Positions 23,693 to 27,077 of a stretch of 58,081 nt of DNA are shown piece by piece. The position numbers and the translations under genes are program-made. A model generated the notes under the pieces. It saw only the letters and a program-made list of their open reading frames with translations. It did not search any database and was not told the DNA's origin. The DNA lies in contig JADGEI010000024.1 of the NCBI GenBank assembly GCA_016744455.1, positions 1-58,081 on the forward strand, in the 5' to 3' direction. The stretch's first letter is position 1, and each line of letters starts with the position of its first letter. This DNA comes from Alcanivoracaceae bacterium. Its GTDB lineage: Bacteria; Pseudomonadota; Gammaproteobacteria; Xanthomonadales; Marinicellaceae.

Positions 23693-23947
23693 GTGTTTCT
23701 AGTTTCATAGTGATATAAATGCCATTATTTTAGTCGCTCTTATCAACATTCCTATCATTATTAAGAAATAAAGTTGTAATATTATGTATCTGAACAGGTC
23801 TTTAGGTAGTAAGTAAGTAACCTACTTGTTTTTTGATTTGAATGTTTTGTGAATATTTTTAACAAAAATTTAACAAGCTCTGTGTCATTATGCTCAGTAG
23901 TTACAAGACTAACAACTTTAAATTTAAACTTAAATAGAGGAAAACTC

Positions 23948-24388
23948 ATGAATAAATCAAAACTATCAATTATTACATTATCATTAGTGTTATTTGCTTT
24001 TATAGGCTTTACAACGATGTCAAGTGCATCAAATAGCCCTTTTGCCCAAAATGATTCTTTTAGTTCAAAAATTACAAAAGGTGATGGCGAAAAAAAATGC
24101 GGTGAAGGCAAATGCGGTGACAAGAAAGCTGAAAAAAAATGCGGTGAAGGTAAATGTGGCGACAAAAAAGCTGAAAAAAAATGTGGCGAAGGCAAATGTG
24201 GCGACAAAAAAGCTGAAAAAAAATGTGGCGAAGGCAAATGTGGTGACAAAAAAGCTGAAAAAAAATGTGGCGAAGGCAAATGTGGTGACAAAAAAGCTGA
24301 AAAAAAATGTGGCGAAGGTAAATGTGGCGACAAAAAAGCCGAAGCAAAAAGCGACAAGAAAAAATGCGGCGAAGGTAAATGTGGCTAA
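23948..24388 (+). CDS. HvfA-like Cys-rich repeat protein, secreted form
   Basis: A 146-residue precursor-like protein. Residues 1-28 form a signal peptide. After a 20-residue spacer the rest is seven tandem 14-residue units of the form KKCGEGKCGDKKAE (the last diverged to SDKKKCGEGKCG), giving 14 cysteines, almost all in EGKCG or KKCG. The EGKCG word repeated after a signal peptide is what I know from HvfA-type precursors, which DUF692 (MNIO) enzymes convert to copper-binding oxazolone or thiooxazole groups. No such enzyme is in the window. The start is ATG at 23948, with AGAGGAAA upstream; the longer upstream frame is not needed. A strong terminator follows at once. Confidence 0.8.
   Translation: MNKSKLSIITLSLVLFAFIGFTTMSSASNSPFAQNDSFSSKITKGDGEKKCGEGKCGDKKAEKKCGEGKCGDKKAEKKCGEGKCGDKKAEKKCGEGKCGDKKAEKKCGEGKCGDKKAEKKCGEGKCGDKKAEAKSDKKKCGEGKCG
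24089..24385 (+). repeat. 42-bp tandem repeat, seven units
   Basis: Seven in-frame units of 42 bases encode the 14-residue Cys repeats of the first EGKCG protein. Units differ only by synonymous third-position changes, except the last, which is diverged. The antisense strand stays open through the array because of codon structure, not because it codes. Confidence 0.9.
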
Positions 24389-24412
24389 ATCATTAACTTA
24401 GTTCAAATAAAG

Positions 24413-24441
24413 AAAACGGCATATTTCATGCCGTTTTTTTT
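24413..24441 (+). terminator. Rho-independent terminator of the first EGKCG gene
   Basis: A 10-bp stem AAAACGGCAT/ATGCCGTTTT with a five-base loop, followed by a T run, stands 25 bases after the stop. It is a strong intrinsic terminator, so the second EGKCG gene probably has its own promoter. Confidence 0.9.
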
Positions 24442-24564
24442 GAATTCCTAGAAAATGTATTATTGTTTAAAAAAAATAAAGATTTTTTTTTAACAATATG
24501 CAATGATAGATTAGTATTTAGTTAAATAATACCAAACCAATTTTAATAAAAGAGGAGAGAAATA

Positions 24565-25041
24565 ATGAAGAGCCAAGCAAAAACAATCAAACTATTAATA
24601 ATGTCATTAGTGCTAATTTTTTCCGTATCACTGACGAGCTGCAGTAACAATAAAGCATCTCAAGGAAATGCGAACCAAAAAGCCAATGCACCTACTGCCA
24701 GTCAAGCTGAAGGCAAATGCGGCGACAAGAAAAAATGTGGTGAAGGCAAGTGTGGCGACAAGAAAAAATGTGGCGAAGGCAAATGCGGCGACAAGAAAAA
24801 ATGTGGCGAAGGCAAATGCGGCGACAAGAAAAAATGTGGTAAAGGCAAATGCGGCGACAAGAAAAAATGTGGTGAAGGCAAGTGTGGCGACAAGAAAAAA
24901 TGTGGCGAAGGCAAATGCGGCGACAAGAAAAAATGTGGTAAAGGCAAATGCGGCGACAAGAAAAAATGTGGCGAAGGCAAATGCGGCGACAAGAAAAAAT
25001 GTGGCGAAGGCAAGTGTGGCGATAAGAAAAAATGTGGCTAA
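24565..25041 (+). CDS. HvfA-like Cys-rich repeat lipoprotein
   Basis: A 158-residue paralogue of the preceding protein with a different anchor and repeat. Residues 1-25 are a lipoprotein signal with lipobox LTSC, so Cys26 would be lipidated. A Ser/Asn/Ala-rich linker runs to residue 48, then exactly ten 11-residue units EGKCGDKKKCG to the C-terminus, giving 20 further cysteines. In units 5 and 8 the Glu is Lys. GAGGAG stands eight bases before the ATG. Lipid anchoring of such a repeat protein is unusual to my knowledge and suggests a membrane-held metal buffer (inference). The DoxX-type gene follows after a terminator. Confidence 0.8.
   Translation: MKSQAKTIKLLIMSLVLIFSVSLTSCSNNKASQGNANQKANAPTASQAEGKCGDKKKCGEGKCGDKKKCGEGKCGDKKKCGEGKCGDKKKCGKGKCGDKKKCGEGKCGDKKKCGEGKCGDKKKCGKGKCGDKKKCGEGKCGDKKKCGEGKCGDKKKCG
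24709..25038 (+). repeat. 33-bp tandem repeat, ten units
   Basis: Ten in-frame units of 33 bases. Base variants (GGCAAGTGT against GGCAAATGC, GAA against AAA) recur in order, so that units 6-8 copy the pattern of units 2, 4 and 5. This indicates a 99-base block duplication on top of the single-unit repeat. Confidence 0.9.
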
Positions 25042-25068
25042 TACCAGTTTTTTTATTTAATTTCTATC

Positions 25069-25103
25069 AAAACGGTGTTTCTTTCTTGAACACCGTTTTT
25101 TTT
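25069..25103 (+). terminator. Rho-independent terminator of the second EGKCG gene
   Basis: An 11-bp stem AAAACGGTGTT/AACACCGTTTT with a nine-base loop and a T run, 28 bases after the stop. Its outer stem AAAACGG is shared with the terminator of the first EGKCG gene, which suggests the whole gene unit was duplicated. Confidence 0.9.
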
Positions 25104-25178
25104 GACCATAAAAATGTAAGCAAACCTGATAACCTTAGGTCTTAAAGATAATACTAATTATTAACGAGAGAGAAAAAT

Positions 25179-25853
25179 ATGAGTTTAATGAAAACGAGTA
25201 AAGATTTATGGAGCGCTCTTACATCAAGATTGAATGCTGCAGGAACTTTTATACCACACTTATTTCTTAGATTAATCATCTTTTGGGAGTTCTGGGAAGC
25301 TGGTAAGATGAAATTAGAAGGCGGCGCTGAAGGCAATTGGTTTGCATCCATTCATGACGCTTTTCCTTTTCCATTTAATTCAATTGACCCCTCCAAAAGT
25401 TGGACAATGGCAACATGGGGTGAAGTATTAGGCTCTATTTTAATTTTATTAGGCTTATTTACTCGATTTGCAGCCATATCCTTAATCATGATTACCGTCG
25501 TTGCAACTGCTGCTGTTCATTGGTCTACCGAATGGAATAGTCTTAGTCAGTTATGGGACGGTTATACTATTACCAATAAGGGAGCCGGAAACTTTAAATT
25601 ACCATTATTGTATATCATAATGTTGTTTCCGTTGTTATTTAATGGTGCAGGAAAATTCAGTTTTGATCATATTCTATCAAAACTAATGACAGGTACAGAT
25701 GGACTACAAAAGACCTCAGATTTAGCTATGTGGGGCTTAGCTGTTATGGCAATTGGATTTCCATTGATGTTTTTAATGCCCGTTTTTGGTGGCGTTTTAA
25801 CAGGTATTGGGCTTGTCGCACTAATTGCCAATAGAATTCTAACTCCACAGTAG
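25179..25853 (+). CDS. DoxX-family membrane protein
   Basis: A 224-residue DoxX-family inner membrane protein. Four or five hydrophobic helices are seen: about 25-40, 75-95 (EVLGSILILLGLFTRFAA), 96-115, 140-160 and 180-218. The FLRLIIFWEFWEAGKMKL start and the GLFTRFAA segment are typical of the family. DoxX-type genes regularly accompany MNIO-type EGKCG precursors in other bacteria, so location next to two such genes is a meaningful link. Its biochemical role there is not established; oxidation or respiratory coupling is a guess. GAGAGAGAAA precedes the ATG. Confidence 0.85.
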   Translation: MSLMKTSKDLWSALTSRLNAAGTFIPHLFLRLIIFWEFWEAGKMKLEGGAEGNWFASIHDAFPFPFNSIDPSKSWTMATWGEVLGSILILLGLFTRFAAISLIMITVVATAAVHWSTEWNSLSQLWDGYTITNKGAGNFKLPLLYIIMLFPLLFNGAGKFSFDHILSKLMTGTDGLQKTSDLAMWGLAVMAIGFPLMFLMPVFGGVLTGIGLVALIANRILTPQ

Positions 25854-25879
25854 AAGATTTTAACCCTGCGGCATAATAT

Positions 25880-25925
25880 AACCAGTATTAAGGCACAAAA
25901 CATTTACTTGATACTGGTTTTTATT
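25880..25925 (+). terminator. Probable terminator of the DoxX-family gene
   Basis: A 9-bp stem AACCAGTAT/ATACTGGTT with a 22-base loop runs into TTTATT, 26 bases after the stop. It is weaker than the two terminators before it. Confidence 0.6.
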
Positions 25926-26024
25926 GTCTCTTGAAAGGCTACAAAACCAAAAATTTCCTTCTAGATTTATTGAATTTGTTACATATTATGTTATTGTAAT
26001 AAAATACCGATGGAAAGTAGAAAA

Positions 26025-27077
26025 ATGATAACACTAGACAAATTAAAAAATTACTATCCTTTCAATAAAATGGAGGGAAAGTTCTTACCTTTATTATTGG
26101 AACAATTTACCCTTTATGATTTTGAAAGAGGTGAAAATATTTTTAAGCATGACGATAATAAACTTTATGCAAAGTATATCATTGATGGGTCTGTCGAAAT
26201 AAAATACCCAACAGGCAGGGAGAAAGTTGTTAAATCGACTTCAATGCAGTCTTATTATCCCATTGGAGACGTAAATTCTAGCAAAAAATTAACATCAACA
26301 ATTAAATCCAAATCAGCTCAAGTTTTAATGATAAACAATATCTTTCTTGACCATTTTACTGTCTGGAATAATTTATTTAAAGAATCAGATAAAAATAGCC
26401 CCTTGCGTGGGCACAAATCTTACCGATGGGTGGTGGGTTTGTTAACTTCAAAAGCTGTACAAATGTTACCACGTGGGCACGTTGATCAAATATTTAAAAA
26501 CCTAGAACCCATTCACACTAAAGCTGGTGCAGAAATAATTACTGAAGGCGATGCAGGTGATTATTGCTATATCATTAGCAAGGGTGAAGTAGATGTCTTT
26601 AAATGCGTGTCAGAAGGAGAAAAACAAATTGCCACCTTATATGAAGGGGCATTATTTGGAGAACAAGCCCTGGTTAGTAAAGAACCTCGAACTGCAACAG
26701 TTCGTATGAAAACTGATGGTATTCTCATGCGCATGATTGGAACAAAATTTTCTTCGCTATTAAAAAGTCACGTAGTTAGGTGGTTAACGGTTGATGCCAC
26801 TTATGAAATGGTTTTAGACGATGCCATTCTCTTGGATGTAAGAGAAAAAGAAGAATTAGAAAACCTCAGTTTTCAAGGCAGTACACATATACCCATGGAT
26901 AAATTACGTGAGCAATGTGAAACTAAACTGAATAAAGAGACAGCTATTATTACCTGTTCAAATACAGGATTACGCTGCGCATCAGCTGCATTCTTATTAG
27001 CTACTCTTGGCTACGATGTTTACAGTATGCAAGGTGGTGTAATGGGTTTACTGAAACTGGTTGAAAACAGGGAATAG
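26025..27077 (+). CDS. Cyclic-nucleotide-binding and rhodanese domain protein
   Basis: A cytoplasmic protein of about 350 residues with three modules. Residues about 15-105 resemble a degenerate cNMP-binding domain; about 150-250 is a clearer one (ITEGDAGDYCYIISKGEVDVF, LFGEQALVSKEPRTATV, with the phosphate-binding Gly-Glu and Arg). The last 90 residues are a rhodanese domain (LLDVREKEE) whose active loop CSNTGLRC contains the expected Cys and Arg. No DNA-binding domain is visible. I prefer ATG at 26025 because GGAAAG stands seven bases upstream; an ATG at 26010 is the alternative. It follows the EGKCG/DoxX genes on the same strand, and a sulfur-handling role would fit that context (inference). 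Confidence 0.85.
   Translation: MITLDKLKNYYPFNKMEGKFLPLLLEQFTLYDFERGENIFKHDDNKLYAKYIIDGSVEIKYPTGREKVVKSTSMQSYYPIGDVNSSKKLTSTIKSKSAQVLMINNIFLDHFTVWNNLFKESDKNSPLRGHKSYRWVVGLLTSKAVQMLPRGHVDQIFKNLEPIHTKAGAEIITEGDAGDYCYIISKGEVDVFKCVSEGEKQIATLYEGALFGEQALVSKEPRTATVRMKTDGILMRMIGTKFSSLLKSHVVRWLTVDATYEMVLDDAILLDVREKEELENLSFQGSTHIPMDKLREQCETKLNKETAIITCSNTGLRCASAAFLLATLGYDVYSMQGGVMGLLKLVENRE

Follow-up and report, generated by a model that had tools for sequence, protein, structure and literature searches.

EGKCG-repeat peptides and HvfX apparently retained after loss of the MNIO enzyme pair in a genus of Marinicellaceae

An EGKCG-repeat locus in a Marinicellaceae genome

Within a stretch of 58,081 nucleotides from Alcanivoracaceae bacterium (assembly GCA_016744455.1, contig JADGEI010000024.1, forward strand; the whole stretch is called the window here), we studied two adjacent genes, pep1 and pep2, that lie head to tail and encode proteins built of EGKCG/KKCG repeats, as found in precursors of the hvf/oxazolin type of ribosomally synthesized and post-translationally modified peptides (RiPPs). 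They are followed on the same strand by genes for an HvfX-family DoxX membrane protein of 224 amino acids (aa; 25179..25853) and for a protein with cNMP_binding and Rhodanese domains (26010..27077), an arrangement that a sequence-only reading had described and that profile matches confirmed, each gene at its place. The enzymes that modify such precursors are HvfB, an MNIO (PF05114), and its DUF2063 partner HvfC (PF09836), and the question pursued here is what became of the peptides in a lineage from which this pair appears to be missing. The genus of the window belongs to the family Marinicellaceae, according to a scan of named HvfX loci, and eleven of its genomes were compared (genomes and loci carry the prefixes G and L below).

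The protein encoded by pep1 (23948..24388) is an exported protein of 146 aa with 14 Cys, in which what by eye is an ordinary signal peptide is followed by NSPFAQ and then by KKCGEGKCG repeats. That of pep2 (24565..25041) is a predicted lipoprotein of 158 aa with KKCGEGKCGD repeats, one of its 21 Cys sitting in the lipobox LTSC; the lipobox recurs, as a pattern match only, in five of five pep2 proteins (window, G003, G009, G006 and G005). Both peptides matched the NCBIfam family KCGExKCG (NF050137; 66 bits for pep1 and 41.3 bits for pep2, cut-off 19.5). With the HvfA equivalog NF050188, which was scored on pep1 and pep2, pep1 reached 49.8 bits, under the cut-off of 95, and pep2 was not listed. 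Neither peptide matched the DUF2282 (Buf1) bufferin domain PF10048, and searches of Pfam and NCBIfam at E ≤ 1 brought up no metallothionein family.

The repeats are not a product of chance, because the six identical 14-aa units of pep1 (24089..24340, six times 42 bases, EKKCGEGKCGDKKA each) differ in their DNA at synonymous sites only. Among these units seven variable sites are synonymous and none is non-synonymous (Fisher p = 4e-8), and among the units of pep2 the numbers are four and one (p = 0.002); this nearly synonymous-only variation suggests that the two peptides are not simply rotting. The commonest step from one Cys to the next in the peptides of the genus is five positions (57 of 123 steps).

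Absence of the modifying enzymes and its rarity

Profile searches with PF05114 and PF09836 found no match in the genome of the window (99.96% complete, 47 contigs), with none for PF09836 even at E ≤ 10, and an HvfB profile based on nine MNIO sequences that belong to EGKCG clusters (seven being from Marinicellaceae) likewise found nothing there at E ≤ 10. The absence of both enzymes from the window, already remarked from the sequence alone, holds and extends to the whole genome. That reading had left two alternatives, enzymes acting on orphan precursors from a distant locus or a distinct system with unmodified Cys; as all three profiles are blank, the former is rejected, and the latter is the better supported of the two.

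Across the genus, PF05114 is absent in 10 of the 11 genomes, and EGKCG repeats are present in eight, with no match in G001, G004 and G008. The exception, G007, has one MNIO, which shares a bufferin-1 type cluster with DUF2282, DUF2063 and a sigma factor. With the HvfB profile only this MNIO and two weak matches (E 0.02-0.04; G010 and G009) were found in the genus, that in G010 lying within a gene which we take to be TsaD.

To judge how unusual this is, we turned to the order and the class. EGKCG repeats occur in 136 of 298 genomes of the order (≥95% complete); four of these 136 belong to the genus, all without MNIO, and outside the genus every tested EGKCG genome has one (115 of 115, being 35 plus 80, out of 132; the 80 came from 97 new EGKCG genomes, 17 from repeated genera being left out). 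At the level of the class 102 of 377 genomes carry EGKCG repeats, 97 of them outside the order, and an MNIO is present in 77 of the 80 of these that were tested (17 from repeated genera were again left out), the three without it being G434, G648 and G544, the last of which is 95% complete with 6% contamination. A published survey counted EGKCG without MNIO in 67 of 2583 genomes and proposed for them either modification-independent activities or a loss of expression or function (PMC12452194, Table 3 for the counts), so that rare MNIO-less EGKCG genomes and the possibility of an unmodified activity are already on record. In the open-licence PMC literature, as far as its accessible text goes, we found no account of HvfBC being lost from a lineage in which EGKCG and HvfX were kept.

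Leader motif and core repeats

From enzyme-bearing relatives we assembled 61 EGKCG proteins, selected for having three or more KCG, a choice that biases the set towards Lys before Cys, and 60 of them are encoded within 1 kb of an MNIO gene. Eight with a cut N-terminus were left out of the leader comparison. Among the peptides with a full N-terminus that adjoin an MNIO, 51 of 52 have GY before the repeats, and the motif written as [LMI]xx(x)GY occurs in 52 of the 53 full-length peptides from relatives with the enzyme, against none of 10 peptides of the genus; this L..GY motif was defined in the present analysis and is not a published criterion, and Haemophilus HvfA lies outside the comparison. 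In the class, GY precedes the repeats in 32 of 33 peptides counted as enzyme-adjacent (two of them, G491 and G475, are from genomes outside the MNIO test, their adjacency being read from the survey) and in five of seven non-adjacent ones; the sole enzyme-adjacent peptide without GY (G401) lies next to a contig end and has an odd N-terminus. Recognition through the signal peptide or an N-terminal leader has been reported (PMC12452194 and PMC13419390 among the sources), and the L..GY motif was not found named in the accessible text of these.

A second lineage shows a similar pattern. G434, a genome of another family, has no PF05114 match. It encodes two GY-less EGKCG proteins, and the gene for one lies upstream of an HvfX gene (222 bits), with an FMN/glutamate-synthase-like gene in between. 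G593, from the genus of G434, has an EGKCG peptide that also lacks GY, and G653, from the same family, has a matching EGKCG gene without GY (adjoining what is presumably an endonuclease III-like gene) together with an MNIO-linked precursor that has it. The pattern in G434 and G653 ties the GY motif to the enzyme a second time. Separately, G686 carries a lipoprotein-like EGKCG gene without GY (L224:5595-5933) on a contig with neither of the two MNIO genes of that genome, possibly an enzyme-free paralogue.

The core has drifted as well. In the relatives Glu stands at -3 of 547 and Gly at -2 of 558 of 571 Cys, against 63 and 61 of 133 Cys in the genus (10 proteins from six genomes), in which Lys precedes the Cys in 133 of 133 cases. 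The pep2 proteins of G006 and G003 also contain a new repeat type, KC(D/N)DPKCK (L069:7643-8281 and L070:7881-8288), that keeps the Cys-x4-Cys spacing.

HvfX and its gene neighbourhood

The DoxX protein scored 138.3 bits with the HvfX family NF050144 (cut-off 80) and also matched PF07681. Its AlphaFold 2 model is helical, with a mean pLDDT (predicted local distance difference test) of 87.9, and fold comparison gave no PDB match at E ≤ 0.001; the best matches, which include NACHO/TMEM35A (probability 0.85, E 1.5) and gamma-glutamyl carboxylase (E 3.0), are uninformative, and HvfX is itself termed uncharacterised (PMC13419390). The HvfX proteins of the genus form one clade (support 94 in the Shimodaira-Hasegawa-like approximate likelihood ratio test), which stands beside the MNIO-cluster HvfX of the same family (support 89). 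Within the genus the proportion of non-synonymous differences (pN) is 0.13-0.28 against a synonymous one (pS) of 0.61-0.80, which is near saturation.

In Marinicella, an enzyme-bearing genus, the genes run EGKCG-MNIO-DUF2063-HvfX. Directly 3' of HvfX an LTD/Endonuclease I gene follows in five of 11 loci of the Marinicella HvfX clade (L093, L094, L095, L100 and L117), and in L098 and L106 it lies about 7 kb away. In the genus of the window the nuclease gene follows HvfX directly, with no MNIO, in five of five named loci (L081, L079, L080, L082 and L086). The order EGKCG-HvfX-nuclease is complete in one genome (G010); in G007 the contig opens with an EGKCG fragment, in G002 and G005 it starts only at HvfX, and G006 combines EGKCG with the nuclease but lacks HvfX. 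In the genome of the window the nuclease lies on another contig. Because of this partial synteny with Marinicella, together with the placement of the HvfX clade, the enzyme pair appears to have been lost while its neighbours stayed. The EGKCG-HvfX block may also have moved, because the upstream flank differs: we take its genes to be trp-like in our genus and dihydrolipoamide acyltransferase-like in Marinicella. The nuclease is in both genera an exported-looking protein with a Lamin-tail domain and an Endonuclease I domain.

A wider loss of the enzyme was also sought in HvfX genes without an adjacent MNIO, and this was rejected, as 12 of the 13 genomes so checked have an MNIO elsewhere. The genome of locus L115 (G325) has no MNIO, and no EGKCG open reading frame was found in that locus. 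Some Marinicella genomes carry extra HvfX copies away from any MNIO (L084, L087 and L089), those of L087 and L089 having an MNIO elsewhere. An FMN/glutamate-synthase-like gene adjoins HvfX in L181 (6684-8165), L135 (5934-7304) and L146 (8593-10032), in the first two without an MNIO alongside.

The last of the four genes in the window contains two cNMP_binding stretches and a Rhodanese domain (Pfam) and had been proposed to link the locus to sulfur state. It was present in none of 11 fetched loci of the genus (five of which extend past HvfX) and in none of 80 named HvfX loci (some of them short contigs), and it was rejected as a functional partner and judged to be a neighbour outside the system. 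On the other side, the gene divergent from pep1 and pep2 is presumably trpD-like, and on this trp side, separated from pep1 by three genes, lies a gene for a thioredoxin-like protein (AhpC-TSA domain), as it also does in the genus loci, five in number, whose sequence extends over this flank.

Terminator-like hairpins with a T-run, both on the forward strand, lie 3' of pep1 (24413..24442; stem from a scan, listed on the opposite strand, T-run by eye) and 3' of pep2 (25069..25104; found by eye, its loop of 10 exceeding the limit of 8 in the scan, which did not list it). A stretch similar to the hairpin-like sequence between pep1 and pep2 occurs upstream of pep2 in four other members of the genus. 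A promoter scan gave eight sites against 8.3 in shuffled sequence. Two short blocks, around GGTCTTT and TTGTGAAnATTT, are common to the region upstream of pep1 in the window (23693-23947) and in four members of the genus, and no metal-response box was recognised in them; two of the five regions compared are nearly identical.

Discussion

On balance we hold it probable that pep1 and pep2 are former hvf/oxazolin-type RiPP precursors that lost their MNIO pair and now act, together with HvfX, as unmodified metal-thiolate buffers of the envelope. Comparison of the genomes supports this through the absent enzymes, the partial synteny, the lost leader motif, the near synonymous-only repeat variation and the retained HvfX. 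HvfB and HvfC would have been lost in the ancestor of the genus, and both descendants of the precursors would still be produced and exported, pep1 remaining soluble in the periplasm and pep2 being anchored by its lipid. With their Cys left unmodified in the cell they would be metallothionein-like buffers of the envelope. The metal would most likely be Cu(I) or some other thiophilic one, bound perhaps through Cys pairs five positions apart; modified EGKCG relatives are reported to bind copper generally (PMC13097082, PMC13419390). HvfX might serve the peptides in the membrane independently of the enzyme, e.g., by keeping thiols usable or by handling bound metal. Selection on the repeats probably postdates the drift of the core, because the KKCG units are characteristic of the genus. 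Whether EGKCG proteins reverted to unmodified metal-thiolate proteins at least twice in Gammaproteobacteria, with the MNIO pair and the L..GY motif that it seems to require both gone and with HvfX and Cys arrays kept under selection, is to our minds evenly balanced.

Several observations weigh against this account. The genomes of the genus are not independent and probably record one loss event. The EGKCG/HvfX set is not fixed in the genus, because HvfX occurs in six of the 11 genomes and is absent from five, including the EGKCG-bearing G006, G009 and G003, and because G001 has HvfX and the nuclease without an EGKCG match. In part of the genus pep1 may be decaying, because it is short in G003 (six Cys) and G006 (a two-Cys remnant upstream of pep2) and its frame shifts midway in G009 (L068), where the shift may reflect genuine decay or a fault in the assembly. 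Part of the old leader seems to remain, because SPFAQ follows the signal peptide of pep1 in the window and in four further members, at the place where enzyme-linked relatives have NPF-Q. The drift of the core was demoted as main evidence, being weak by itself and not diagnostic, because Glu-Gly is likewise incomplete or absent in a few enzyme-linked precursors (G614 with 0 of 8, G653 with 3 of 8 and G659 with 5 of 12). Finally, in the family of G434 decoupling may precede loss of the enzyme, because G653 has its GY-less EGKCG protein alongside an MNIO.

Some of these points would suit a relic, in which the peptides and HvfX are functionless leftovers that decay at different speeds: HvfX was not found in five of 11 genomes, three lack an EGKCG match, pep1 is short or frameshifted in three, and non-function is one of the options named for MNIO-less cases (PMC12452194). 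We regard this as unlikely, since the repeats in the window vary synonymously except at one site, Lys-Cys is kept at every one of the 133 positions, HvfX is under purifying selection and the lipobox persists in all five pep2 proteins. It is quite unlikely, too, that the peptides buffer envelope thiols and disulfides, or reactive sulfur, and not metal; a DoxX homologue elsewhere protects against oxidative or sulfur stress (PMC12452194) and the thioredoxin-like gene recurs on the trp side, but the latter is encoded on the opposite strand with no evident link to the peptides, and the modified relatives are, as noted, reported to bind copper.

The Cys could still be modified by an enzyme that is unrelated to HvfBC, took their place and reads another leader. 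HvfX, which NCBIfam names a RiPP maturation protein, is retained, the shared SPFAQ could be a recognition element, and G434 has its FMN/glutamate-synthase-like gene between EGKCG and HvfX; that gene, however, was not found in the window or in any fetched genus locus, where the peptides have as recurrent neighbours only HvfX, the trp-side genes and the nuclease, which enzyme-bearing Marinicella possesses too. The KC(D/N)DPKCK repeats of G006 and G003 also speak against such modification, as the related enzyme pair FonBC rejected Pro and, at the Gly that follows Cys, tolerated no substitute except Ala (PMC13097082), and we think a replacement very unlikely. Least credible, and close to negligible, is that hvfBC exist and are merely missing from the drafts: the own genome is in 47 contigs and several contigs of relatives break inside or beside the repeats, but the enzymes are absent from 10 of 11 genomes, some of them 99.96, 100, 99 and 98% complete, the locus in the window lies mid-contig with no enzyme adjoining, and the leader motif has gone as well.

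If the peptides are indeed unmodified buffers, the genus would amount to a naturally occurring knock-out in which a RiPP-modifying enzyme is gone and its substrate survives, and HvfX would have a job independent of modification. A comparison of the genus with Marinicella offers a direct test of what a Cys array gains from the 5-thiooxazole, of whether HvfX works without modification, and of L..GY as part of the recognition site of the MNIO/partner pair. Annotation of such proteins as oxazolone/thioamide-modified RiPP metallophores is unsafe where MNIO is absent.

Among known systems, the published MNIO-less EGKCG genomes have the same presence/absence pattern as this genus, although the accessible text of that source does not analyse them by lineage, synteny, leader motif or selection (PMC12452194). 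The lipidated oxazolin NedA of Neisseria dentiae carries EGKCG repeats on a lipoprotein, as pep2 does, but it has NedB (MNIO) and NedC and shows a change of -12 Da for three motifs (PMC12636315), whereas pep2 is without such enzymes. With the hvf/oxazolin operon of Haemophilus influenzae (HvfA-HvfB-HvfC-HvfX) and the captophorin EGKCG clusters the locus shares exported EGKCG-repeat proteins and an HvfX-family DoxX protein, and in the HvfX tree that of the window groups with the MNIO-cluster HvfX of Marinicellaceae; unlike those clusters, it stands in a genome without HvfB and HvfC, the enzyme-linked leader motif is lost, about half of the motifs have no Glu-Gly before the Cys, and the score falls under the HvfA equivalog cut-off. 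Bacterial metallothioneins are short, Cys-dense proteins, and pep1 and pep2 resemble them by analogy in their density of Cys and in a presumed thiolate binding of metal, but differ in being exported, in their KCG repeats and in their relationship to RiPP precursors. We conclude that the locus is a genuine, rather surprising variant of the hvf/oxazolin kind and that it does not count among the RiPP clusters of that kind.

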